Source: Neotamlana nanhaiensis (lineage in GTDB: Bacteria > Bacteroidota > Bacteroidia > Flavobacteriales > Flavobacteriaceae). Taken from it: 64,000 nucleotides of DNA. The stretch's first letter is position 1; each line of letters starts with the position of its first letter. The notes below the pieces were generated by a model. That model was not told where the DNA came from. It did no database searches and saw only the letters and a list, made by a program, of their open reading frames with translations. The stretch spans positions 124,001-188,000 of the forward strand of contig NZ_JTDV01000013.1 of assembly GCF_000943555.1 (NCBI RefSeq), in the 5' to 3' direction. The translations under genes and the position numbers were made by a program. This document shows positions 672 through 40,191 of the stretch, one piece after another.

Positions 672-2939
672 TTATTCTTTTATGGTTGCAGGCTCAACAG
701 AGTCGTCGTGAGCACTGTAATATTCTTCTAAAAGTGTCATCATTGCCTTGAGTAAATCTTTGGTTTCTAATAAAATACTAAAATACAATGTCGTATTTTT
801 AGGGCTCGATTCTTCGGTGCGTGTGCGCTCAACTTGTTTTTGTATTTTGTCGTTAAGTAAATTAAAAATCTCTTGTTTTTTACTTAAAACGATGCCTATT
901 TCTTCAAAAGAATGCGAATTAAATGATGTTTTAGTACTTTCAAATAGGTTTTCTAAAACTTTATCAACCTCTTTTAATTCTTTAATTTGAGTGAATTTTA
1001 ACTTTTTATGATTGTTATTTACATGCTTATAACTCACATTTGAAATGTATTCGAGCGACTGCGTAATATCTTGTAAATGACTTAATATGGTAATGTAAAA
1101 GTTACTTGCTGTAGCACTTGGTTCGTCTAATTTTTTAATAAAATAGAAGATGTTATCACGAAGTTCTTCAATTTCTTCCGATAGTTTATTAATGTTGTTT
1201 TTATTCTTTTTAAGCTGTTTTAAGTTGTGGGTAGCCAAACCGTTTATAGCGCCACTGTAAATTTTGTTGCCACGTTTTACTACGTTAGCAATATTATTAG
1301 CACTTTCAACAATAACACCTTGTGTAGAGCTACTTTCTGCTTTTTTAAGACTGTCTTCAGCTTTTTGTTCTTTAGCCTTTTTACTATGTACAATAGAGTT
1401 TCTAATTAAAAGAATAACCGCAATAGTTAATAAGGCAGTTAACGCATAACCGCGCCCATAAAATAAAATTAATGCCATAACTGCGGCTGCTACAAAAGCA
1501 CTTAAAGCAGTAAAAAACCAACCACCAATTACATTAAGTACACCAGCAACACGATAAACAGCACTTTCGCTGCCCCAAGCTCTGTCGGCTAACGAGGTTC
1601 CCATAGCAACCATAAAAGTTACGTAAGTTGTAGAAAGCGGTAGTTTCATTGAGGTTGCAATAGAAATTAATACACTTGCAACCATTAGGTTTACGGCAGC
1701 TCGAACTAAATCGAATGCTGGTAAATCTTCCTTTTTTATTACTGTTGAAACCACTGGTTTTTTAAACTGTTGTTCAATTTTTTGTTTAAATGAATTAGGT
1801 AGCATGTTATTAAAACCTTCGGAAGCTACGATGCTATATCGAACAATACTTCTTGATAAAAAGTTGGGTTCAAAACGTTCTGAGCCTTCATCTTGACGCG
1901 ATAAATCAACCGATGTTTTTACAACCGCACGAGCTTTACTAGAAAACCATAAGGTTAACACCATAATAATACCTGCAATTAAAAGTAAATATGGTTTGGT
2001 TTGCACAGGTTCGCTAAGCGCCACCATAGGGAAATGCTGTGGTAAAATATTAGTAACCGACCAAGCTTCGTATGAGTTAAATGCCGCAATGGGTACACCA
2101 ATAAAGTTTACTAAGTCGTTACCAGCAAAGGCAACTGCAAGAGCAAAAGTACCTACAACAATAATAATTTTATAAATATTACTTTTTAAAGTCACCATAG
2201 CAACGTACGATAGAATGGTGAAAACAACAAAGCCAATGGCAAGAAGCGCAAGCGGATTTCCTGTTATTACGGCTTTAATAGAATCGTTCATAAACGTGGC
2301 GTTTTTTATCCCTTTTATAAGGATAAAATACATGATAGACGTAATAGCGAAACCACTAAAAACAGCACCAAATATTTTTGGTTTACTATTAAAATTGAAA
2401 GACAATAATAACCTGGAAACAAATTGAATTAGGGCACCAATACTAAAGGCTACAACAACCGATAGTAAAATACCAAGTATAATTTCAATGGCTTTTTCGT
2501 TGTTAATATAGTTTCCTAAGTTTAAAATAGATTGAGAATCATCGGCCGAAATTTTCATAATGGCAATACACACCGAAGCGCCTAAAAGCTCGAAAACAAT
2601 AGAAACTGTGGTCGATGTAGGTAAACCCATGGTGTTAAAAAAGTCGAGTAGAAGGATATCGGTAAGCATAACGGCCATGAAAATAATCATGATCTCGTCG
2701 AACATAAATTCGCTAGGGTTAAAAATACCTTTACGCGCTACTTCCATCATTCCGCTAGAAGACATGGCGCCAATAGCAACACCTAAACTAGCTACAATCA
2801 TAATGGTTTTAAACGAAACGGCTTTAGAGCCAATAGCTGAATTTAGAAAATTAACAGCATCGTTACTAACTCCAACAACTAAATCGGCAGCCGCTAATAC
2901 TGCTAAAGCTACCAACATATAGATGTAAATATCTCCCAT
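672..2939 (-). CDS. PiT-family inorganic phosphate transporter with PhoU-like C-terminal extension
   Basis: A 755-residue integral membrane protein of the PiT (PF01384) family, which imports phosphate or metal-phosphate with protons or sodium. The family signature GVSNDAVNF is at residues 23-31 and its second-repeat counterpart FAGNDLVNFIGVP is near the middle, in the usual inverted-repeat arrangement with about 11-12 hydrophobic segments up to residue ~535. Residues ~540-755 are hydrophilic, helical and charged, resembling the PhoU/DUF47 proteins that are usually separate partners of PiT transporters; here the domain is fused. ATGTTA repeats with 11-bp spacing upstream (2989-3005, 3076-3092, 3131-3158) suggest phosphate-responsive control. 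Transport of phosphate follows from family membership; regulation is inferred. Confidence 0.93.
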   Translation of the reverse strand: MGDIYIYMLVALAVLAAADLVVGVSNDAVNFLNSAIGSKAVSFKTIMIVASLGVAIGAMSSSGMMEVARKGIFNPSEFMFDEIMIIFMAVMLTDILLLDFFNTMGLPTSTTVSIVFELLGASVCIAIMKISADDSQSILNLGNYINNEKAIEIILGILLSVVVAFSIGALIQFVSRLLLSFNFNSKPKIFGAVFSGFAITSIMYFILIKGIKNATFMNDSIKAVITGNPLALLAIGFVVFTILSYVAMVTLKSNIYKIIIVVGTFALAVAFAGNDLVNFIGVPIAAFNSYEAWSVTNILPQHFPMVALSEPVQTKPYLLLIAGIIMVLTLWFSSKARAVVKTSVDLSRQDEGSERFEPNFLSRSIVRYSIVASEGFNNMLPNSFKQKIEQQFKKPVVSTVIKKEDLPAFDLVRAAVNLMVASVLISIATSMKLPLSTTYVTFMVAMGTSLADRAWGSESAVYRVAGVLNVIGGWFFTALSAFVAAAVMALILFYGRGYALTALLTIAVILLIRNSIVHSKKAKEQKAEDSLKKAESSSTQGVIVESANNIANVVKRGNKIYSGAINGLATHNLKQLKKNKNNINKLSEEIEELRDNIFYFIKKLDEPSATASNFYITILSHLQDITQSLEYISNVSYKHVNNNHKKLKFTQIKELKEVDKVLENLFESTKTSFNSHSFEEIGIVLSKKQEIFNLLNDKIQKQVERTRTEESSPKNTTLYFSILLETKDLLKAMMTLLEEYYSAHDDSVEPATIKE

Positions 2940-2988
2940 AAAACTATTAAATATTATTAGGCAAATGTCTCATTTTAAATTGAACTCT

Positions 2989-3005
2989 ATGTTAACCAAA
3001 TGTTA
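2989..3005. promoter_or_regulatory. Pho-box-like direct repeat upstream of the PiT gene
   Basis: Two exact ATGTTA hexamers at 2989-2994 and 3000-3005, spaced 11 bp start to start, about 50 bp upstream of the PiT start codon. The 11-bp repeat period matches PhoB/PhoP boxes known from other phyla. On the strand of the PiT gene the hexamer reads TAACAT. Function is inferred from spacing, sequence and the adjacent phosphate transporter. Confidence 0.5.
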
Positions 3006-3075
3006 TGTTCTTTTATAATGCTTACTTAAATTATACTGTTTTTACTGGTGTTGCCCATATTAACTGAATTAAGTA

Positions 3076-3092
3076 AAGTTAATAAAATGTTA
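3076..3092. promoter_or_regulatory. Second Pho-box-like repeat pair
   Basis: AAGTTA at 3076-3081 and ATGTTA at 3087-3092, again 11 bp apart, midway in the divergent intergenic region between the PiT gene and the YwqK-like gene. It could serve either gene. Confidence 0.4.
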
Positions 3093-3130
3093 TGTATTAA
3101 AATATTGATAATCAATTAAATATCGATTTA

Positions 3131-3185
3131 ATGTTAATTTAATGTTATGTAAATGTTTCATAATTGTAAAAATTGTGTATCTTTG
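3131..3185 (+). promoter_or_regulatory. Triple Pho-box-like repeat with TATCTTTG promoter
   Basis: Three hexamers ATGTTA (3131), ATGTTA (3142) and ATGTTT (3153) follow each other at exactly 11-bp intervals. The box TATCTTTG at 3178-3185 fits the Bacteroidota -7 consensus TAnnTTTG, and the third hexamer ends 19 bp before it, which is where the -33 TTTG should be; no good -33 is present. A missing -33 covered by an activator half-site is the classical layout of an activator-dependent Pho promoter. It drives the gene starting at 3216. Confidence 0.6.
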
Positions 3186-3215
3186 TAAAAGAAGATAACA
3201 TAAAATCCCCATATT

Positions 3216-3530
3216 ATGAAAACAATATTAAGTTTCGCAATGGCATTGTTTGTAACAGTGACTTTTGCACAAAAAGAAAAAAAGCTAACATTAAATGAAG
3301 ATACAAATTTAATTGATGTAGTTTATTATCATGACAACGGAGAAGTTAGTCAAACTGGATCGTTTACTTTAGAAGGTAAACTTGAAGGTAACTGGATTAG
3401 TTATGATAAAAAAGGAAACAAATTAGTATCGGCGTTTTACAACAACGGAAAAAAAGTGGGTAAGTGGATTCACTATATTGATGGCAAGCAGAAAGTTGTA
3501 AATTATAAAGATAATATTGCCTCGTTATAA
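3216..3530 (+). CDS. small secreted YwqK/MORN-like repeat protein
   Basis: A 104-residue protein with a typical signal peptide (MKTILSFAMALFVTVTFAQ) and a mature part made of about three short beta-hairpin repeats of the MORN/YwqK type, each containing a G-x-W-x-x-Y or related core (for example GNWISYDKKGN and GKWIHYIDGK). Such proteins are common in Flavobacteria but have no established biochemical role; many are labelled antitoxin YwqK from weak similarity, which I do not adopt. It is transcribed divergently from the phosphate transporter behind a triple Pho-box-like repeat and is followed by a strong terminator. A phosphate-starvation-induced exported protein is the likeliest reading. Confidence 0.8.
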   Translation: MKTILSFAMALFVTVTFAQKEKKLTLNEDTNLIDVVYYHDNGEVSQTGSFTLEGKLEGNWISYDKKGNKLVSAFYNNGKKVGKWIHYIDGKQKVVNYKDNIASL

Positions 3531-3560
3531 CTATATTATTTGTTAGTGTTTAAAAAAAAG

Positions 3561-3597
3561 AAAGCGTCTAAAACCAATGTTTTAGACGCTTTTTTTT
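3561..3597. terminator. bidirectional Rho-independent terminator
   Basis: A perfect 14-bp stem (3561-3574 with 3579-3592; core AAGCGTCTAAAAC) around a 4-nt CAAT loop, with A-runs before and T-runs after. It serves the small gene ending at 3530 on the plus strand and the TonB-receptor gene ending at 3618 on the minus strand. Confidence 0.92.
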
Positions 3598-3617
3598 ATT
3601 TGAGATATATTGTTTTT

Positions 3618-6443
3618 TTAGAACTTAAAAGTATATCCTAAAGAAAACTCGGTACCTGGTTGTCTTAATGAAAATATTTTGTCTTCGGCATTATAAGCTT
3701 CAAAAACACTTTCTTTTTCAGCACCTAAAATGTTGCTTACCTTAAAATCGATTGAAGAGCGTTTTTTCTCTCCAAAAGCCTTGTTTAAAGTAAAGTTTAA
3801 GCTTTCAAATGGGTTGGTGTATACATCTGGAACACCACCTAAACCTACAACCTCAAGTGTACGTCCTTGTACATTAAAGAATAAACCAGTTTGTAAGCCT
3901 AACTCGTCGTTAGTATAATTTAAACTGGTATTGATTAAGTAAGGAGCTTGACCTTGCATGTCGCGTTCTCTATAAATATTTTGTCCGGTTCTAGCATTGG
4001 CAACACGCGAAGTGTATTCACCTTCAGACATCGTTAATTCCGATTGTGTGTAAGAGGCATTAATGCTAAACTTTAAGTTGGTTAAATCTTCAGTAATAAA
4101 TCCTAAATTTTGTCTAAATTCTACTTCGGCACCGTAAACATTAGCATCACCTAAGTTAGCCACAGTTAATTGAGTTGGCGCACTAGCGAAGAACGATTTT
4201 TCAATAGGATCTTTAAACTTTTTGTAAAAACCACTTACAGCAAACATTTGTCCAGCTTCACCAAAACGCTCATATCTTAAATCGAAGTTATTCACGTAAG
4301 TTGGTACCACATCAATATTACCAATAAAAAGTCTATCGGTAATTGGATCGTAAATTTGTGAATACGACGATTCTTTAAACGACGGGCGAGCCGTAGTTCT
4401 ATAGTAAGAACCTCTAATATTTACAGCATCGGTTGCCGCAAAAATTAAGTTTGCCGATGGAAATAAATCGTGTTTATCGATAATTTTAGCACGTAAAAAG
4501 TCTTCGTTCGAGCTATTATTTCTTCCTGTGTAATACGATGTGAATATTTCGGCACGTAAACCAACTATGGTTTTAAGTTTTTCTGAAATGTTAAACTCGT
4601 TTGAAATGTAAGTAGAAGAAATATTTTGTTCACCTTCGTAAGCATCACCAGCATTAAAAATATCGGTAGATATTAAAGCAGTTCCGTTTTCATTATCGCG
4701 ATTCCATAAATTATCAGAAGCTAAGAAATTGTTAGGATCTCCATTTTCAATAGGTTCGTTGTTTTGAAAGGTCCAATCATCGATACTAAAATCTCTGAAT
4801 TTATATGTGTAACCACCACCAAATTTAAGTTTAGCAGGTCTTCCGCCTAATTCATATTTTTTATTAAAATCGAATTTAGTAGCCCAGTTTTCTTCTTGTA
4901 AGAATCTCCAAATGCGTATTGGGAATGTTGCAAACGATGGTGTAATTTGGTATCTGCCATCATCAAAACGTTGCAATGGTGTAATTTTATGGTCTTTATC
5001 GTGAACTTTAGAGAACGTTGGCGATAATTTCCATTCAAAATTCCAATCGTTTTTAGCGCCAAACGTATGGTCACCATTTATTAATAAATTGGTTACCGAA
5101 CGCTCGGTGTATGTAATCGCATCTTTTGTAATAGGCTCGAAACCAGAACCTGCTACTGCACCAGCAACCGATTGGTTAAAGAAACCACCAGTAGATTCAC
5201 CATTTTGAATGTGTAAAAGGTTTACTTTATATTTTGATAATTGCGTTTTAAAAGTTAAACCAATTAAACCATTAAGTAAAATGTTATTAATACCTTCTCT
5301 ACCATTCGATAAACGGCTAGCTTGTAATTCGTTGTTCGATTTATCTAAGAAATCGAAAGCATACGCACCATCAACGCGGTTTTCGTAAAACGTAGTGCTG
5401 TTTTTGTACGAAAACAAGGCCATGTAGCCAAGTTTGTTATCGCCAATGGCAAACTGATCGCCAAGTGTAAAACCAAAATCGAAATTAGGTTTACTTGTTT
5501 CTTCTTGCGCTCTTAATTCACTATCAAAACGACTCGTTAACGTGTTTAGTAAAAGTCTGTTATCGAAAGTACCAGGAATTTCTTGGTAACGATGTATTGG
5601 TCTAGAACGTGTACCATTGTCGTAACCCCAAAAATCGGTTTCGCTACCAGAACCAATAAGGTAATTACTTTTACCATGCATACTTGGATTAAAACCACCA
5701 CCTAAAGACACAGAAGCTTCAAATTTAGTAGGGAAATCTTTGGTAATAATATCTACAACACCACCAGTAAAATCAGCTGGATATTCGGCTGCTGCCGATT
5801 TAACAACAACAATATTGTCTAATATATTTGTTGGGAAAATATCCATTTGAATGGTGTTTCTATCTGGATCTAAACCAGGAATATCAACACCGTTTAATGT
5901 AGATTTAGTATAGCGATCTCCAAGACCACGAACGTAAACATATTTACCACCTTCAACAGATACACCAGGTACTGTTTTTACAGCACTTGCTAAGTTACCA
6001 GCACCACTAGCTTTTATAGTTTGCGCAGACATGGCATCTAAAAGTGTAGCCGATTTTTTTTGAAGTGCTAAAGCTGCACTTTCGGTATTTCTTTTAACAC
6101 TTGTAGTAATTACAATTTCATCTAACGCATTTGAAGCTAGAGTAATATCTAAATTTGTAACTTGGCCAGCATTAATTACAACACCACTAATTTCTTTGGT
6201 TTCGTAACCCACAAAAGAAAAAAGGATGGTATAGGTGCCAGCCTCTAAATCTAATTGGTATTTTCCATCAAAATCTGAAGTTGTACCTGTAGTAGTTCCT
6301 TTTACTAGAATGTTTGCAAATGCAAGAGGTTCATTGTTGTAATCACCATCAATTACATTACCAGCTAAAATACCAGATTGTGCGTTGGCTATGTTAAACG
6401 ATCCTATTACAAATAGAGTAAGAACTATTAAAATTTTTTTCAT
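3618..6443 (-). CDS. TonB-dependent outer-membrane receptor
   Basis: A 941-residue TonB-dependent transporter. The order is signal peptide (residues 1-21), CarboxypepD_reg-like domain (about 22-110, with GTTSDFDGKYQLDL), plug domain (about 120-245, GGKYVYVRGLGDRYTKSTLNG and a GGVVDI-type end), and a 22-strand barrel to the C-terminal FSLGYTFKF, ending in the aromatic residue expected of barrel proteins. It imports a large or scarce substrate across the outer membrane using ExbB/D-TonB energy. It is the second gene after a secreted lipoprotein gene (6513-7853) from which it is separated by a hairpin; the pair resembles receptor/surface-lipoprotein couples, but the lipoprotein is not SusD-like. 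Nearby Pho-box-like repeats suggest a phosphorus-containing substrate; this is inference. Confidence 0.92.
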   Translation of the reverse strand: MKKILIVLTLFVIGSFNIANAQSGILAGNVIDGDYNNEPLAFANILVKGTTTGTTSDFDGKYQLDLEAGTYTILFSFVGYETKEISGVVINAGQVTNLDITLASNALDEIVITTSVKRNTESAALALQKKSATLLDAMSAQTIKASGAGNLASAVKTVPGVSVEGGKYVYVRGLGDRYTKSTLNGVDIPGLDPDRNTIQMDIFPTNILDNIVVVKSAAAEYPADFTGGVVDIITKDFPTKFEASVSLGGGFNPSMHGKSNYLIGSGSETDFWGYDNGTRSRPIHRYQEIPGTFDNRLLLNTLTSRFDSELRAQEETSKPNFDFGFTLGDQFAIGDNKLGYMALFSYKNSTTFYENRVDGAYAFDFLDKSNNELQASRLSNGREGINNILLNGLIGLTFKTQLSKYKVNLLHIQNGESTGGFFNQSVAGAVAGSGFEPITKDAITYTERSVTNLLINGDHTFGAKNDWNFEWKLSPTFSKVHDKDHKITPLQRFDDGRYQITPSFATFPIRIWRFLQEENWATKFDFNKKYELGGRPAKLKFGGGYTYKFRDFSIDDWTFQNNEPIENGDPNNFLASDNLWNRDNENGTALISTDIFNAGDAYEGEQNISSTYISNEFNISEKLKTIVGLRAEIFTSYYTGRNNSSNEDFLRAKIIDKHDLFPSANLIFAATDAVNIRGSYYRTTARPSFKESSYSQIYDPITDRLFIGNIDVVPTYVNNFDLRYERFGEAGQMFAVSGFYKKFKDPIEKSFFASAPTQLTVANLGDANVYGAEVEFRQNLGFITEDLTNLKFSINASYTQSELTMSEGEYTSRVANARTGQNIYRERDMQGQAPYLINTSLNYTNDELGLQTGLFFNVQGRTLEVVGLGGVPDVYTNPFESLNFTLNKAFGEKKRSSIDFKVSNILGAEKESVFEAYNAEDKIFSLRQPGTEFSLGYTFKF

Positions 6444-34036: not shown

Positions 34037-34138
34037 CTAATAAAAGAACATCATAATGTTAAAAGCAATAGTCATGATTATTATTATGGCTAAGCCAATA
34101 AATAAACATTTGTTGATTGTTTTGTTTTCTTCTCCCAT
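34037..34138 (-). CDS. 33-residue single-helix membrane peptide (too short for routine calling)
   Basis: ATG at 34138 to TAG at 34037-34039. The product begins with a charged, hydrophilic MGEENKTINK and continues with a stretch of Ile, Leu, Met and Phe (CLFIGLAIIIIMTIAFN) to the C-terminus, so it should be a tail-anchored inner-membrane peptide. Upstream is a promoter-like unit (TAAAGTTA on the plus strand at 34227-34234 with an inverted repeat centred 31 bp further up), an 85-nt leader with a 9-bp hairpin, and downstream is a terminator at the right place. The complete transcription unit is the main support; there is no Shine-Dalgarno, which is normal here. No homologue can be named. Confidence 0.6.
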   Translation of the reverse strand: MGEENKTINKCLFIGLAIIIIMTIAFNIMMFFY

Positions 34139-34158
34139 AAAGCTTTGTTTTATAAACC

Positions 34159-34181
34159 CTGCGTTAAACGAATTAACGCAG
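34159..34181 (-). other. hairpin in the leader of the 33-residue peptide gene
   Basis: A 9-bp perfect stem, CTGCGTTAA / TTAACGCAG with a 5-nt loop, 21 nt before the start codon on the minus strand. It has no long T-run after it, so it is more likely a leader structure affecting translation or stability than a terminator. Confidence 0.6.
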
Positions 34182-34226
34182 AGTTTCAAAAAATCTCTCA
34201 ACTAGATATTGTGATTAATAGCACTG

Positions 34227-34277
34227 TAAAGTTAGGTAGTAATGAGATGATATAAAATAAGCAGTTCTACGTATTTT
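34227..34277 (-). promoter_or_regulatory. promoter unit C (for the 33-residue peptide)
   Basis: Minus-strand box TAACTTTA (34227-34234) followed by CAGTGCTATTAAT, and an inverted repeat AAAATAAG / CGTATTTT (34254-34277, one mismatch) centred 31 bp upstream of the box. The same arrangement occurs in units A and B. Confidence 0.55.
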
Positions 34278-34300
34278 TAATCGATTTTTTATGAGTACAT

Positions 34301-34370
34301 AAAAAAAGGCTTCAGATTAATAAAAACCTAAAGCCTCCTATAATTCTCCCTAAGAACTAATTAATAGCAC
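34301..34370 (-). ncRNA. candidate small RNA A
   Basis: Minus strand, predicted start near 34367, end at the T-run 34307-34301, about 65 nt. A terminator hairpin GGCTTCAG/CTAAAGCC (34308-34315 with 34328-34335) closes it. The first 29 nt or so are identical to RNA B and include the single-stranded, GGA-containing TTAGGGAGAATTATA. It has no ORF longer than six codons. Promoter unit A is directly upstream. Evidence is comparative within this locus only. Confidence 0.55.
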
Positions 34371-34381
34371 TGTAAAGATAT
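34339..34381. repeat. 43-bp direct repeat, copy A
   Basis: Identical over 43 bp to 34476-34518, 137 bp apart. The repeat covers the -7 box and the 5' half of the candidate small RNA. An 18-bp piece of it (ATTAATAGCACTGTAAAG) recurs at 34214-34231 in unit C. Confidence 0.95.
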
Positions 34382-34425
34382 ATTATGTTGCCGAATTAAA
34401 AAATACGTACTTCTGCGTATTTTTT
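34373..34425 (-). promoter_or_regulatory. promoter unit A
   Basis: Minus-strand box TATCTTTA (34373-34380) with an inverted repeat AAAAAATACG / CGTATTTTTT (34398-34407 and 34416-34425) centred 31 bp upstream. With initiation 5-6 nt past the box the repeat is centred near -43, the usual place for an activator touching polymerase. Confidence 0.55.
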
Positions 34426-34437
34426 TATAATTGGTAT

Positions 34438-34507
34438 AAAAAAAAGGCCTAAACTTTTCAATTTAGAACCTTTTTTATAATTCTCCCTAAGAACTAATTA
34501 ATAGCAC
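34438..34507 (-). ncRNA. candidate small RNA B
   Basis: Minus strand, predicted start near 34504, end at the A/T-run 34445-34438, about 67 nt. Terminator hairpin with paired AAAAAAGG/CCTTTTTT (34440-34447, 34469-34476) and CTAAA/TTTAG. Same 5' half as RNA A, different 3' hairpin, which is the pattern of duplicated sibling small RNAs. Confidence 0.55.
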
Positions 34508-34518
34508 TGTAAAGATAT
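34476..34518. repeat. 43-bp direct repeat, copy B
   Basis: Exact copy of 34339-34381. Confidence 0.95.
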
Positions 34519-34560
34519 GTTTTATTACCGAATAATAAAATACGTACATATACGTATTTT
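34510..34560 (-). promoter_or_regulatory. promoter unit B with perfect AAAATACGTA palindrome
   Basis: Minus-strand box TATCTTTA (34510-34517); arms AAAATACGTA (34537-34546) and TACGTATTTT (34551-34560) form a perfect inverted repeat with a 4-bp spacer, centred 31 bp upstream of the box. The outer arm overlaps the stop codon of the response-regulator gene. Confidence 0.58.
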
Positions 34561-35188
34561 ATAAAAAATGTTTATTTAATGTTGCCCAAATCGATAATGA
34601 TGTGGGTTTGTTATCTAAACCAAGTTTTGCCACAATATTACTACGGTGTTTATCTACCGTTCTAACCGATATAGATAGCTCGTTTGCAATATCTTGGCTA
34701 GTGTGTTTGTTGGCAATTAGCTTCACGATTTTTAATTCAGATTTTGTGAGATTATCAATTTCTTTAGGCCTTTCGTTATGTGAGTTTTGTAAATACGATG
34801 CTATTTCATCGCTAAAATATGGGGTGTCGTTTATTACGCTTTTAATACAAGCTTCAATTTCTTCAATGGCAAATTCTTTTAAAATATAGCCATAAACATT
34901 AAAGGCTTTGGCTTGGTCGTAAAGTTCTTCTTCTTTATCGAAGGTAATCAGGATAATCTTGGTGTCTAGGTTGTTTTTTTTGCAGGCTTCGGCTACTTCT
35001 AATCCTGTCATATGTGGCATTCTAATATCTAGAATGGCTATTTCGGGTTTTTGTTTTACTATTAAATTATAGGCACTTTTACCGTCGGTAGCACTCCCAA
35101 TTATATTAAAACCTTTTGAGTTTAAAAAATCGGTAAGACCACGTAGCATTAAAGGATGATCGTCTGCAATTACTATGGAATTGGTCAT
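34559..35188 (-). CDS. LuxR/NarL-type response regulator
   Basis: A 209-residue two-component regulator: receiver domain residues 4-120 (acidic pocket D9-D10, phosphoacceptor D54 in IAILDIRMP, conserved Thr/Lys region LITF and GYILK) and a GerE/LuxR HTH (about 143-205, LTKSELKIVKLIANKHTSQD and ISVRTVDKHRSNI). No histidine kinase gene lies nearby, so it is an orphan regulator in this window. It is the last gene of the PKD-CHAT-protease operon (35 bp after the protease) and is directly followed by three promoter units with inverted repeats of the kind such regulators bind. Control of those units is inferred. Confidence 0.92.
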   Translation of the reverse strand: MTNSIVIADDHPLMLRGLTDFLNSKGFNIIGSATDGKSAYNLIVKQKPEIAILDIRMPHMTGLEVAEACKKNNLDTKIILITFDKEEELYDQAKAFNVYGYILKEFAIEEIEACIKSVINDTPYFSDEIASYLQNSHNERPKEIDNLTKSELKIVKLIANKHTSQDIANELSISVRTVDKHRSNIVAKLGLDNKPTSLSIWATLNKHFL

Positions 35189-35223
35189 TAATTAGAGAGG
35201 GAAATTATTTTTTTGCTATTTTA

Positions 35224-35667
35224 TTATAATTTTAAATATAAATATTTCTTTTCATAATCTATAACGGCTTTACCTTTTTTTAGTATATCGGCACCAATAA
35301 TGCCATCAACAGGTTTGGAATTATGATTTTTTAAAGCTGTATTTACATGTGTTAGGTTAAATAGAACTAAAACCACTTTATTGTTGGTCCATTTTCCTAT
35401 TTTAATTTTATTTCGTTTCGACATTTTGGTGTCCATATCGGTAGCACCAGCACCAGCTGCTTTAATTATTGAATCTTCGGCCTTAAGTTTAAAGGTTTCA
35501 ATGGCTTCAAAACCTACACAAGAATTTGATGCGCCTGTATCTAGAATAAATAGCCCTTTTTTACCGTTAATGGTAGCTTTTATTTCAAAATGATTGGTTT
35601 TGGTAAGGTGTAATTTAACCTTTGAGTAACCTTTGTTTAGAAGAAATTCTTGCAAATTAGCTTGCAT
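35224..35667 (-). CDS. retropepsin-like aspartic protease
   Basis: A 147-residue protein of the clan AA (retropepsin-like) fold: active-site ILDTGAS with Asp43, the flap region, and the hydrophobic-hydrophobic-Gly motif DGIIGADIL near residue 125. Such single-lobed proteases work as homodimers. There is no signal peptide, so it is probably cytoplasmic, unlike the CHAT protein encoded just upstream whose stop codon it overlaps by 11 bp. The overlap implies coupled translation and a shared task, perhaps a processing cascade. Confidence 0.85.
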   Translation of the reverse strand: MQANLQEFLLNKGYSKVKLHLTKTNHFEIKATINGKKGLFILDTGASNSCVGFEAIETFKLKAEDSIIKAAGAGATDMDTKMSKRNKIKIGKWTNNKVVLVLFNLTHVNTALKNHNSKPVDGIIGADILKKGKAVIDYEKKYLYLKL

Positions 35668-38212
35668 GTCTTTTTAGTTTTCTCCTCAAAAATACTACAA
35701 ACAGAATAATTATACTACCAAATACAATATAAATTGTAGTATAATTTTTGCTAGGTTTGGTAAGTTTACCATAATACACAAAAGCACTCCAGTAATATGG
35801 TGACTTTTTAAAGTTGGCTATGTTTTTATTATTTAAATAGCCTATTTTAGAACTATGATTAGCATGAAAAGCCGATTTTGAAATTTCAAGATTCTCATAA
35901 AATAATTGCATAATTTTCGAGGTCGATAAATCGTTAATTTGCCAAAGTGAAAATAGCAGGTTTTCGGCACCAGCATATTGAAAACCACGAGCCATACTCA
36001 TAGCGCCAGCACCTTTGTACAATTTGCCAATACCTGTTTCGCAGGCACTTAAAACCACGAGGTTTGGTTTTAGATTTAACGCATATAATTCGTTTAAATA
36101 CAAGGTATCGTTAATAAACGAAATGTTTGCTGGAAGTGAAAAATCACCACTACTAGCGTGGGTTGATAAATGAATAATTCCAAAATTGTTGGCGTATTTC
36201 AAAAATTTTTGTTTTGTAGCTTCTTGTTTCAGTAGAAATTCACCAGTAAATATTCTTTTTATGTATTCAGCTTCATCTTTAGAGTAGCCGAGTTCTTGTT
36301 TCTTACCTTCAAAAACAGGAAAAATACCTAAAATATTAGTGTTATTTTTGGTTTGAAGCTGCTGTGTGTAAAATGCAGCACTCGAGTTATATGCTATGTT
36401 ATGCTGTTTCACCAAAAAGGGCACGTTTTGGTATTGTGTGGTATTGGTTTCTTGATGTAAAAGTGCTTCAAAAGGCACAAAATTCAACAGTCCATCAGGA
36501 ATTATTATGAGGTTTTTGCTTTCAATAGCATCAATTTTTAACAGATTAAATAAGTTGTAGGCTTGCGAAGTGAAATTTGCAATGTTGTTGTTTATAATCG
36601 AAGCATTGTCAAAAAGATGAATAAAGTTTTTTATTTGATTTGATACGGCTTCGTTAAGTTCAATTTTATCAAAGGATGTATCGTTTTCAGTGATTTTAAA
36701 TATGAAAATGGCTTCCCTTCCGAAGAAAAATTCCAAACAAGTTGCTTTGTCAATATTTAATTGTTTTTGAAGCTTTTCTAATGAAAACGGATTAGTTTCA
36801 AAACGTCCGTATTTTTTGTTAATTTCAGGTTGCAATCGTTTTAAATCAATAGAAACCGTATTTAAAGCTGTACTTATTTTATTAAGTTTTTTGGTGTCGT
36901 CGTTATTAATTTCGGCGTGAATTAATTGACTGGTTAAGCGTTCTTGTTCGGCTAATAGTTTAAATTCTTTTATAAGTAAAGTGTCGTTTGGAAATTGTTG
37001 TAAACGTAGTTTTTTGCTTGCAATTGTTTTTAAAACTCCAGATTTGTTGTTTTCGGCGTAATGTAATGCTTTCGTAATATTGTTTTTATTACCAGAATGT
37101 TTAAACTGATTGTAAAGTAAATTTATACAGGTTTCACTTCGTAATCTGTCGGTAGCTTGATGCTGAATTTTATTTTCCTGCGAAGTTGAATTATTTTGAA
37201 GCAATTGCGAAACATAAAAACTTAAATCGAGATAATTTAAGGCTGTTTTTCTGTTGGTTTCAATAGATGCTAATACATCAAAAATATCAATAAATGTGTT
37301 TTCGGCGTAAAGCAAATTTTTGTCTGGTAACTCATTTGTATTTTGGTTTGGTAGTAAAATTTGTAGCGCCTGTTGTAAACTCGCTTTGGCTAAGGTATCG
37401 TTTTTATTGATAATATGAAGTTGGGCTTCTTCCAAATAGAATTTAGCCAAAAATCTATCAGAAAACGTTTGATTGCCAATTAGCGTTTTCGCTTTTTGAA
37501 ATTCTGAAATCGCTAGCTTAACTTCATTTTGTTTCAACGCAACAGCGTAATTGTTTTTATGTTTTTCAAAAGTTGATTGAAGTTGATTGTTTAATAAAAA
37601 CGCTTTTTCGAAATTATTTAATTCAATTAAACTTTTAATTTTTAGTTGGAGCAATAATTGTTTTTGCTGATTGTTATTAGCGTTAGCTTGTTCTAGAATG
37701 TCTATAGCATTTTTATGTTTACCAATAGTTTGGTATAGAATAGCCAAATTTATATAGCCACTTGTTTGATGTTTTGCATTTTCTTGAGTTTTTGCCAGTA
37801 AAATATAATTGTTAATAGTACTTATGGCATTGGTATAATCGTTTATTTGAATGTATAAATTACCAAGAGGTTTTAAGCAACTTTCAATAATATCGAAATC
37901 TGAAATTGCAGCGAGATTGTTGTTAAAAAACCGTTTTGAAGCATCTTCGAAGCTTAAAATACTTTGGGTTAAATGCCCTATTTCTTTTAAATAATATGCT
38001 TTATTGCATTGCAAAAAAACGAAGGCTAATTGCTCGTCGCTGGTTTTAAGTTGTGTTTTAAAATAATGTTCTTTTTGTAATAAGGTGTTTAGCGTAGTTT
38101 CATTTTTGTTGGCTATAAAGGTTTCGGTGGCAACATAAATGTCTTCTTCTAAATTTTGCGAAAGCAAAACAGAAGTTATAAAAAAGAGCAGCCAACTAAG
38201 TTTTTTCATCAT
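35657..38212 (-). CDS. membrane-anchored TPR-CHAT protein (caspase-like protease)
   Basis: An 851-residue protein from ATG at 38212 (MMKKLSWLLFFITSVLLSQ, a signal peptide); an ATG at 38251 would overlap the upstream gene and hide the signal. Residues ~20-430 form helical TPR-like repeats; residues ~530-830 form a CHAT domain of the caspase clan, with the catalytic His685 in HLSTHASSGD and Cys724 in LSACETGIG, both present. A transmembrane helix follows (TIYIVFGSIIILFVVFL) and a basic tail RRKLKRH. The protease should thus face the periplasm, anchored at its C-terminus. CHAT proteins cleave partner proteins on a signal sensed by the repeats. It overlaps the aspartic-protease gene by 11 bp. Confidence 0.88.
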   Translation of the reverse strand: MMKKLSWLLFFITSVLLSQNLEEDIYVATETFIANKNETTLNTLLQKEHYFKTQLKTSDEQLAFVFLQCNKAYYLKEIGHLTQSILSFEDASKRFFNNNLAAISDFDIIESCLKPLGNLYIQINDYTNAISTINNYILLAKTQENAKHQTSGYINLAILYQTIGKHKNAIDILEQANANNNQQKQLLLQLKIKSLIELNNFEKAFLLNNQLQSTFEKHKNNYAVALKQNEVKLAISEFQKAKTLIGNQTFSDRFLAKFYLEEAQLHIINKNDTLAKASLQQALQILLPNQNTNELPDKNLLYAENTFIDIFDVLASIETNRKTALNYLDLSFYVSQLLQNNSTSQENKIQHQATDRLRSETCINLLYNQFKHSGNKNNITKALHYAENNKSGVLKTIASKKLRLQQFPNDTLLIKEFKLLAEQERLTSQLIHAEINNDDTKKLNKISTALNTVSIDLKRLQPEINKKYGRFETNPFSLEKLQKQLNIDKATCLEFFFGREAIFIFKITENDTSFDKIELNEAVSNQIKNFIHLFDNASIINNNIANFTSQAYNLFNLLKIDAIESKNLIIIPDGLLNFVPFEALLHQETNTTQYQNVPFLVKQHNIAYNSSAAFYTQQLQTKNNTNILGIFPVFEGKKQELGYSKDEAEYIKRIFTGEFLLKQEATKQKFLKYANNFGIIHLSTHASSGDFSLPANISFINDTLYLNELYALNLKPNLVVLSACETGIGKLYKGAGAMSMARGFQYAGAENLLFSLWQINDLSTSKIMQLFYENLEISKSAFHANHSSKIGYLNNKNIANFKKSPYYWSAFVYYGKLTKPSKNYTTIYIVFGSIIILFVVFLRRKLKRHAS

Positions 38213-38238
38213 AAGGTATTGCCAATTGAAGTTTGATT

Positions 38239-40191
38239 TCAAAATTTCCAAATGGCATAAAATTGCCAGTAGCTAAAATCGTTATCAAAATTCATAATAT
38301 ATCTTGCGCCTAAACTTGGACCAATTCTGGCAAAACCTGCAGTAGCTTCAAACAGTAAACCAGTGCGTAAATTAGTGAAGCTGTTGGTGGTTTCTTGCGA
38401 GTCTTCAATGGTGTTAAAAACGGGAGCATCGGGTTCGGTGCCTTCAAATTGTTCAATTAAAATATCTTGATTTTGCTTTTCTGAAACCGAAATGGTGTTA
38501 TGTAAACCCGCTCCAAGACCAAAATAGTTATTTATGTTGTAACGCATAAGTAATGGTACATCCCAATCAATATTGTTATATGATGTGTTTGTTGTTGTAC
38601 GTTGTCTAAACCGAAATCCTTGAGGGTCTTGAACAAATTCTTCTTGAACTTGGGTGTCTCCGTTATATTTATGAAAATTATTTTCCAATTCTACCTGCCA
38701 ATACCAACGGTAAGATTTGTATGGCGATAAGGTAATGCCAAAAAAGTAACTTTCAGAATCGTTTAATTTACTAAAAGAGTTTACACCAGCTTTAACGCCA
38801 ACAGAAATACCAGGTGTAAACCGCGTGGTAGAGTAGTTGGTAATTATGGGATCGTTTTTATCGAAAATAATGGCGGTTCTGCTCTTGGTTTTTTTCTTAT
38901 GAAAATCTTTAGCAAACTTAATGCTGTATTTTACAAAGCCTTTTGTGCTGTCGTATTCCTTAACATTTTTTTGTTCGCTTCCTGGTAAATAGATGTTTTT
39001 AAAAGTGAAAATAGCCTGAGAATCTGTAAACGTTGTATCTAAACAACTGTAAATAACATCGCGCTTTGGGCAGATATCACATTTAGGATACATGTCTAGA
39101 ATTTTTATTGAAGATTTATCAAGCATTTCTGGAATATCGGTTTCAAGACGGATGGTTCGCGCAGGACCTTCACCATTATTTTGAAACTTTATTTTATACT
39201 TTAAGTTTTTAAAACGTACTAAACGATAATTCATTAGCGTGCCGTTTGATGACATTTTATTAGGATCGTGCGAGGTTACAATCTCCATTTCCATGTCTTT
39301 TACTTTATGGTTGTCGTAGTTGCTATCTGGTACATAAACACCACGCACCGAAATTATAGCGCTGGTGTCTTTAACCATTTCGGGAGTTGTTTTTAGGCTT
39401 ACAAAAATGTTGCGTTCTTCTTCGGGTTGCATATTATCGAACTCAATAACCTGCCAGTTTTTATATAGAAATTCCGATTCTTTTAAGGTAAGCGGTAAGT
39501 TAGTTTTTATAGTAGTGTCTTGTAATTGCTGGTGGTTTTCAATATTAAAATGCTTTGCTGAAGCTAAATCGTTTACATCGGTATCTATTTTGCCTGTATA
39601 AGCAAACGTGTTTACATCGATGTTTTTTTCGTTGTGATAGGTGCGTGTTTCAAGAATTTCAAAATTATCGGCTTTAAATTGGTTTTCGTTGTAAAACAGA
39701 TAAATTTTGCCGTTAGTTGTGTAGTTTTTGGTGTTTTTATAGCGAATAATAGTTACCAATTCTTCATCTGGTATAGGTTCGCGATTGCGTTTTAAAATAA
39801 AATCATCGTCCATGGTTGCCAAATCTTCCGAAGGTATATTTGCCGCATTTATAGCTACTTTTTTAGGTCTCGATGTTGGTGGTTTTCCCGTGTCGTAATT
39901 ATTGGTTGCCCATAAGCGTACTTCGTATTCGCCTGTTGCTTTATAAATATGTTTTGGGTTTTTCTCGGTGCTGTAATGGCCATCTCCAAATTCCCAGTAA
40001 TGGGTATAAAAAGCTTTGGGTGCACCAGCAATTTGATTGAGTTGTGGCGTTTTTGGTGTAAAAATAACTTCGTTTTGGTTTATGTAGGGAACTATGTTGG
40101 CAACTCTAACCGAATCGGTTTCCACGATGTCTTGAGAAAAACTGTAAAAACTTATTAAGTAGATAAAAAGGAGGTGTTTATTTTTTAACAT
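38239..40191 (-). CDS. PKD-domain outer-membrane protein with C-terminal barrel
   Basis: A 650-residue exported protein: signal peptide (to about residue 19, YSFSQ), one PKD domain (about 55-115, HYWEFGDGHYSTEKNPKHIY), a long beta-rich middle with a cysteine cluster (PKCDICPKRDVIYSC, residues ~370), and from about residue 470 alternating amphipathic strands ending in YAIWKF, as in an outer-membrane barrel. It starts the operon with CHAT, aspartic protease and response regulator, so it may be the surface or periplasmic sensor or the target of the CHAT protein. No function known. Confidence 0.8.
   Translation of the reverse strand: MLKNKHLLFIYLISFYSFSQDIVETDSVRVANIVPYINQNEVIFTPKTPQLNQIAGAPKAFYTHYWEFGDGHYSTEKNPKHIYKATGEYEVRLWATNNYDTGKPPTSRPKKVAINAANIPSEDLATMDDDFILKRNREPIPDEELVTIIRYKNTKNYTTNGKIYLFYNENQFKADNFEILETRTYHNEKNIDVNTFAYTGKIDTDVNDLASAKHFNIENHQQLQDTTIKTNLPLTLKESEFLYKNWQVIEFDNMQPEEERNIFVSLKTTPEMVKDTSAIISVRGVYVPDSNYDNHKVKDMEMEIVTSHDPNKMSSNGTLMNYRLVRFKNLKYKIKFQNNGEGPARTIRLETDIPEMLDKSSIKILDMYPKCDICPKRDVIYSCLDTTFTDSQAIFTFKNIYLPGSEQKNVKEYDSTKGFVKYSIKFAKDFHKKKTKSRTAIIFDKNDPIITNYSTTRFTPGISVGVKAGVNSFSKLNDSESYFFGITLSPYKSYRWYWQVELENNFHKYNGDTQVQEEFVQDPQGFRFRQRTTTNTSYNNIDWDVPLLMRYNINNYFGLGAGLHNTISVSEKQNQDILIEQFEGTEPDAPVFNTIEDSQETTNSFTNLRTGLLFEATAGFARIGPSLGARYIMNFDNDFSYWQFYAIWKF

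Follow-up and report, generated by a model that had tools for sequence, protein, structure and literature searches.

The window, that is, the whole stretch of 64,000 nucleotides of DNA that was analysed, carries a response regulator gene (RR) on its minus strand, followed by three short promoter units. The product combines a REC domain with a GerE helix-turn-helix (HTH) and belongs, by these Pfam domains, to the NarL/FixJ response regulators with a LuxR-type HTH. The features of the locus are as follows, with the evidence for each in brackets.

35186 to 35220, minus strand: RR leader with predicted complementarity to the small RNAs (sRNAs) (sequence, duplex energy, leader signature across loci)
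35215 to 35220, minus strand: site AATAGC in the RR leader, complementary to the sRNA tail (sequence)
35186 to 35204, minus strand: site TTTCCCTCTCTAATTAATG in the RR leader, overlapping the start codon (sequence)
34559 to 35188, minus strand: RR gene, REC plus GerE/LuxR-type HTH, 209 aa (Pfam Response_reg 2.4e-25, GerE 8.5e-12)
34539 to 34558, minus strand: operator 1, AATACGTATATGTACGTATT (sequence, genome repeat search)
34510 to 34517, minus strand: promoter box 1, TATCTTTA (sequence)
34433 to 34507, minus strand: sRNA unit 1 with tail, UAGGG hairpin and terminator, ends inferred (RNA model match, fold z -2.9)
34402 to 34421, minus strand: operator 2, AATACGCAGAAGTACGTATT (sequence, genome repeat search)
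34373 to 34380, minus strand: promoter box 2, TATCTTTA (sequence)
34299 to 34370, minus strand: sRNA unit 2, ends inferred (RNA model, terminator by scan, fold z -4.0)
34256 to 34275, minus strand: operator 3, AATACGTAGAACTGCTTATT (sequence, genome repeat search)
34227 to 34234, minus strand: promoter box 3, TAACTTTA (sequence)
34139 to 34224, minus strand: leader of the mini-protein mRNA, beginning GTGCTATTAAT, with a strong hairpin at 34148-34192 (sequence, fold z -3.5)
34037 to 34138, minus strand: mini-protein gene, MGEENKTINKCLFIGLAIIIIMTIAFNIMMFFY, 33 aa with one hydrophobic segment (homologues, family dN/dS 0.22)

An earlier note on this DNA had described the three units from the letters alone, and its measurements were confirmed. 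The three 20-bp repeats, centred at 34548.5, 34411.5 and 34265.5, were correct to the base, in all three units 31 bp separate the centre from the nearer edge of the box that goes with it, and the minus-strand boxes at 34510, 34373 and 34227 were rightly placed. The box nearest to the RR (34510) and the middle one (34373) lead to the sRNA units, which have 43 bp in common and then differ in their terminator hairpins, and the far box (34227) leads to the mini-protein unit, where the 33-codon open reading frame (ORF) was found at 34037-34138 on the minus strand, as claimed. The sequence CAGTGCTATTAAT is present after the box in all three. The RNA model match for sRNA unit 1 corresponds to positions 158435-158507 of contig C5. 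Upstream of the RR, at 35224-38251, lie a gene for a retropepsin-like aspartyl protease and a TPR-CHAT gene, in the place that is occupied by a TPR histidine kinase in distant relatives. Beyond the CHAT gene, further upstream and in the same orientation, the region 38239-40191 encodes a protein with PKD, DUF7619 and DUF7849 domains.

In the Flavobacteriaceae set of 299 genomes, RR orthologues (E<=1e-45) were found in 139 genomes. The promoter units were analysed behind 139 distinct RR loci, a number that equals the former by coincidence; 40 of these loci were added from genomes without the sRNA 21-mer (see below) at the RR locus, and they represent a part of such loci, mostly the better-scoring ones. 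At least one repeat-plus-box unit was present within 1 kb downstream in 135 of the 139 loci, and 251 units were found in total, with TTT[AG] at offset 45 in 246; shuffled sequence yielded 0.024 units per locus. Two of the four remaining loci have an operator that overlaps the RR stop codon and was excluded by slicing, one has an operator without a box, and one, L288, lacks any repeat. The repeat and its spacing persist even where the RR orthologue has an identity of only about 50%. Since 135 of 139 loci carry units against 0.024 per locus in shuffled sequence, the comparison indicates that the three-unit design is far beyond chance. It is important to mention that the repeat alone is not rare in the window's genome, where 49 sites with up to three mismatches were found against 54 for the reversed control, and this chance level is what an origin by accidental repeats, or by a decaying and functionless tandem duplication, could draw on; among the ten best repeat sites (L005-L014), only the three in the window are followed by a TAnnTTT[AG] box with the expected spacing. 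With the fixed spacing and the RR linkage in 135/139 loci, such an origin is a negligible prospect. The proposal of the earlier note that the RR drives sibling RNAs and a peptide had been exposed to the loss of the repeats in relatives that keep the RR, and with L288 as the only repeat-free case among 139 RR loci it was not refuted. This conservation strongly supports the module of promoter, RNA and peptide as well as its association with the RR.

The RNA itself is found well beyond the window. The 21-mer TTAATTAGTTCTTAGGGAGAA was detected, with at most one mismatch, in 67/299 Flavobacteriaceae genomes, against one match for its reversed control. At least 115 stretches with the RNA were found in named genomes, the 80 listed among them including Algibacter, Hyunsoonleella, Flavivirga, Olleya, Formosa, Tamlana, Seonamhaeicola, Mangrovimonas, Xanthomarina and other genera, and the RNA body is nearly unchanged across many genera. 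In a scan at the level of the order, in which 12 candidates per genome were scored, 11/395 genomes gave a match, all of them from the family of the window; L117, one order-level match, is without the sRNA core. The comparison thus shows the window units as one instance of a widespread module. Rfam (release 15) gave no match at the gathering score over the sRNA units of the window and matched only tRNAs in 20 further loci, and no description of this RNA was found in the literature, judging by titles and the openings of abstracts.

In an alignment of 56 sequences the RNA consists of a 5' tail, a hairpin with a UAGGG loop and a terminator. The terminator helices show strong covariation. In the 5' stem 96.7% of the possible standard pairs are formed, and double changes are seen in two of its seven pairs; the covariation support for this stem is modest in the alignment because the sequence hardly varies. 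More divergent copies retain UAGGG while changes in their stems are compensated, as in L128 (AUACU/AGUAU) or in L084, where U-A takes the place of a C-G pair. Among 325 bodies chosen by the box and a GCTA start, some of which are leaders of mini-protein mRNAs or coding sequences matched by chance, TAGGG was present in 149, and in 134 of these five or six contiguous pairs stand beside it; a few bodies have longer loops ending in AGGG.

In order to relate the operators to their regulators, 191 distinct RNA copies were compared, with identical 120-bp sequences counted once (some named loci come from the same genomes as G-labelled ones). The operators were TACGTA-n4-TACGTA (class 1) in 134 copies, TACTCA-n3-TGAGTA (class 2) in 44, TTACGG-n4-CCGTAA (class 3) in 3, of a TACC type (class 4) in 7, and of other types in 3. 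The operator centre lies at -47.0 from the TTAATTAG element in 129/134 class-1 and 7/7 class-4 copies, and at -46.5 in 41/44 class-2 copies. Eleven class-1 and class-2 copies were too close to a sequence edge for the regulator test. An RR lies upstream, on the same strand and within 700 bp, in 118 of the 126 testable class-1 copies (two of the 118 are edge-cut fragments), and four of the eight misses belong to one locus, L233, whose RR sits farther upstream. A PAS-LuxR gene lies upstream in 39 of the 41 testable class-2 copies, and one of the two misses, L143, has a degenerate class-1 operator adjoining an RR. Class 4 has varied LuxR-type neighbours, with none within 700 bp in 2/6 testable copies; a LuxR-type gene was found within 700 bp in 1/3 class-3 copies and in none of the three with other operators. 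Operator type thus follows regulator type in these comparisons, class 1 going with the RR and class 2 with PAS-LuxR. Additionally, the RNA body occurs once more in the genome of the window, on a separate contig and directly behind a PAS-LuxR gene (PAS_3 plus GerE), with an inverted repeat different from that of the RR-linked copies. By this sequence linkage, and beyond what the earlier note had proposed, the same RNA also goes with a second class of regulator.

Several loci show particular arrangements. L233 has at least four class-1 sRNA copies behind a single RR (2939-4400), L056, L067 and L200 have copies with the third operator type, and in L054 and L058 copies with the TACC-type operator stand opposite pairs of divergently oriented LuxR-type genes. 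In L091 (G278:C34) an RR and its sRNA lie beside a PAS-LuxR and its sRNA.

LuxR/NarL activators usually bind near -41, and the operator would lie near this position if transcription starts at the G of GTGCTA, which fits activation. We infer from this layout that the RR binds the repeats and activates the units. It is improbable that the repeats are bound instead by another LuxR-type protein, or act in repression, with an RR linkage that is purely positional: the operator class changes with the regulator class, the operator keeps its place behind the RR even where sequences have diverged widely and the neighbouring genes differ, and its position near -41 suits an activator. What speaks for another binder is that in the clade of the window the ancestral kinase is not beside the RR and no close orthologue was found in the genomes searched. 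A histidine kinase directly precedes the RR in 14/14 distant RR loci examined that are without a retropepsin neighbour, and the retropepsin family is present in 100/114 class-1 loci. The best match to the ancestral TPR kinase in the window's genome, with three other genomes of the clade also searched, had 33% identity; it was rejected as an orthologue, since the genome of the query itself contains a paralogue that matches at least as well (36%).

The third output, the membrane mini-protein, was followed through the same loci. Of the 251 units, 91 have an sRNA only, 88 a peptide only, 36 both and 36 neither, by loose criteria that for the peptide admitted some unrelated frames (e.g. in L057 and L257). 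A profile of six mini-protein sequences, including that of the window, matched 44/90 loci at E<1e-3, the six seeds counted, and the matches span all regulator classes. The dN/dS was 0.22 over 126 pairs, in a set selected for an Asn close to the C-terminal end, so that the presence of this Asn in 100% is by construction; this ratio shows purifying selection. Pfam and NCBIfam gave no match near the cut-off for the mini-proteins. In this comparison the mini-protein of about 33 residues is the most widely kept output, more so than the sRNA, which also goes beyond the earlier note. In many kinase-type RR loci the operator appears to drive the mini-protein only, which often starts a few bases past the box, and the sRNA model still recognises some leaders of mini-protein mRNAs (L126, L127). 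From these two observations we infer that the mini-protein may have come first and that its leader gave rise to the sRNA.

The start of the RR mRNA is complementary to the RNA, a feature that the earlier note did not contain and that emerges from comparison of the leaders. Sites complementary to the sRNA tail (AATAGC, often TAATTAATAGC) were present in 50/98 distinct RR leaders, where 4.7 were expected, and loop-complementary sites of the CCCT type, close to the ATG, in 44/98 (6.4 expected). Nine neighbouring gene families showed no comparable excess; the largest excess was that of retropepsin, with tail sites in 4/96 (1.9 expected) and loop sites in 6/96 (3.2 expected). Duplex energies reached p<=0.05 in 40/98 RR leaders (4.9 expected), 17 of them at p<=0.01, and 58/98 were above 0.05; the nine neighbouring families, most of them represented by up to 40 leaders, stayed near nominal. 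The duplex of the window's RR leader, at -17.1 kcal/mol (shuffle p 0.04), lies over the start codon. Moreover, a site was found in 84/116 distinct 60-nt RR leaders with an sRNA core downstream against 6/25 without one (Fisher p 1.3e-5, although the RNA copies are related by descent, so that p-values here overstate independence). Among the sRNA-free loci a site was present in 2/18 of the kinase type, which have almost no leader and are thus a weak control, and in 4/7 of the retropepsin type; one of these four, L261 (G084), has a class-2 copy elsewhere in its genome. L292, with a tail site and no core, stands outside the negatives of this comparison.

In leaders with both sites, the tail site precedes the loop site in 24/30 and follows it in 6/30. 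The former order makes one continuous duplex over both sites impossible, and only the reverse order, seen in L277, L284, L289 and L290, allows it. Leaders of the tail-then-loop type would either engage two sRNA molecules or have the loop site pair together with the AT-rich start region, and the latter pairing is seen in predicted duplexes. As a class, the complementarity to the RR's own mRNA is significant in these statistics, and feedback on this mRNA is predicted with good support.

The PAS-LuxR leader showed no comparable complementarity, with 2/41 at p<=0.05, and feedback on the PAS-LuxR mRNA was set aside on this ground. Leaders of CHAT genes, considered as a second target, gave 2/16 at p<=0.05 and a mean energy of -12.7 versus -11.5. 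A 9-mer complementary to the loop occurred outside the RNA copies twice in the window's genome and once in a genome of the same genus, against 5 and 2 for the control, and wide use of loop complements was rejected for lack of enrichment in these two genomes. A dual-site pattern gave 73 match rows in six genomes against 36 for the reversed control, an excess not accounted for by the RR. Among 42 dual-pattern loci inspected (30 from the search and 12 fetched), the RR was the only ORF of at least 40 codons whose start was matched in more than one genome; it was matched in five of the six, three of the five by coordinates only, and some matches away from gene starts also look homologous between genomes.

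We favour, with a probability of about 0.65, a reading in which, in these marine Flavobacteriaceae, the RR activates the sibling sRNAs and the mini-protein while translation of the RR is in turn controlled by the sRNAs. The claim of an RR driving these outputs has gained backing from the tracking of operator and regulator, the retained repeat and spacing, and the selection on the mini-protein. The RR, probably phosphorylated, would bind the AATACGTA-n4-TACGTATT repeats and activate three short transcripts, namely two sibling sRNAs of about 70 nt and the mRNA of the 33-aa membrane mini-protein. Each sRNA would comprise the 5' tail (GCUAUUAAUUA), the small UAGGG-loop hairpin and the terminator, and its tail and loop would base-pair with the RR mRNA around the start codon. 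This pairing would most likely repress the RR and so close a feedback loop. Because the PAS-LuxR-linked copy in this genome has a different operator, a second signal could act through the same RNA.

The RR could also activate the units while the main targets of the sRNAs are other mRNAs and pairing to the RR leader plays a minor part; we regard this as unlikely. The RNA body is near-constant in many genera, as for multi-target sRNAs, and the genome-wide search covered one loop-centred 9-mer and one dual pattern; against this stand the 9-mer sites at or below their control and the recurrence of the dual pattern at an ORF start for the RR only. Less probable still is that the RNAs, like the GacA-driven RsmY/Z, act as sponges for an RNA-binding protein with affinity for the AGGGA loop. 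The CsrA core is A-N-G-G-A, the loop reads the same and stays constant while the stems change, and the RR has a similarity to UvrY/SirA/GacA that is below threshold (94 bits, cut-off 280). Each RNA carries a single motif, however, and the proteins were not found in the 10 RNA-bearing genomes searched: CsrA (PF02599) was found in 0/10, with 3/14 control genomes positive, RRM_1 (PF00076) in 0/10, with 2/14 controls positive, and Hfq (PF17209) in 0/10, with control genomes positive. A CsrA sponge and an RRM partner were therefore both set aside as unsupported. Under the preferred reading, in which the sRNAs feed back on the RR, the pairing would be chaperone-free or proceed via another protein.

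A broader idea, which we hold tentatively and at somewhat less than even odds, is that one sRNA serves as a common currency. LuxR-type sensors (the RR, PAS-LuxR and probably others) would each own a copy with its own operator, all converging on one RR-mRNA start codon without Hfq, CsrA or RRM proteins, and the sRNA would have been born by duplication from the mini-protein mRNA leader. To our knowledge, few sRNA systems of Bacteroidota outside Bacteroides have been described, and regulation without Hfq or CsrA is largely open in this phylum. The module is a compact, conserved and testable case, which supplies defined operators, a regulator, an RNA and a predicted start-codon target with natural variation, together with a mini-protein family that is without a curated model. 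It also suggests the birth of an sRNA from an mRNA leader, followed by its sharing among regulators.

Among known systems, GacA-RsmX/Y/Z joins a NarL-type response regulator to several small RNAs with a GGA-containing loop, and all three traits are shared by the present module. Unlike the Rsm/Csr sponges, the RNA has one AGGGA hairpin in the 56-sequence alignment, not several GGA hairpins, and its genomes lack CsrA/RsmA (0/10); unlike GacA-RsmX/Y/Z, it is complementary to the RR mRNA. Rfp18 of Flavobacterium psychrophilum is, as here, a conserved sRNA of Flavobacteriaceae, with a third stem-loop predicted to pair with metalloprotease mRNAs; the RNA described here, compared with Rfp18 by description, has two hairpins, and LuxR is not mentioned in the part of that account considered here (PMC9723704). 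FopS/GibS of Bacteroides thetaiotaomicron are a multicopy family that pairs near start codons, and the FopS members bind RbpB, an RRM protein, and repress the mRNAs of SusC-like transporters (PMC11697453). The likeness, judged by the excerpted description and not by sequence, lies in a multicopy Bacteroidota sRNA with predicted start-codon pairing, and the difference in the missing RRM partner (RRM_1 in 0/10 genomes). LuxO is a regulator of the sigma-54 type and the Qrr sRNAs use Hfq; here the RR is of the NarL/LuxR type and Hfq dependence is not indicated, the gene being found in 0/10 genomes. In the account of Vibrio LuxO-Qrr available to us, a response regulator controls several sibling sRNAs, which in turn repress the mRNA that encodes it, in negative feedback (PMC3262071), and sibling sRNAs likewise stand behind a response regulator in the present module, as seen by genomic linkage and fixed operator spacing. 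For this module, of which no earlier description was found, the layout thus appears to resemble LuxO-Qrr but to differ in the type of response regulator and in Hfq; unlike LuxO-Qrr, it also has a mini-protein behind the same type of promoter and a second regulator class that carries the same RNA.
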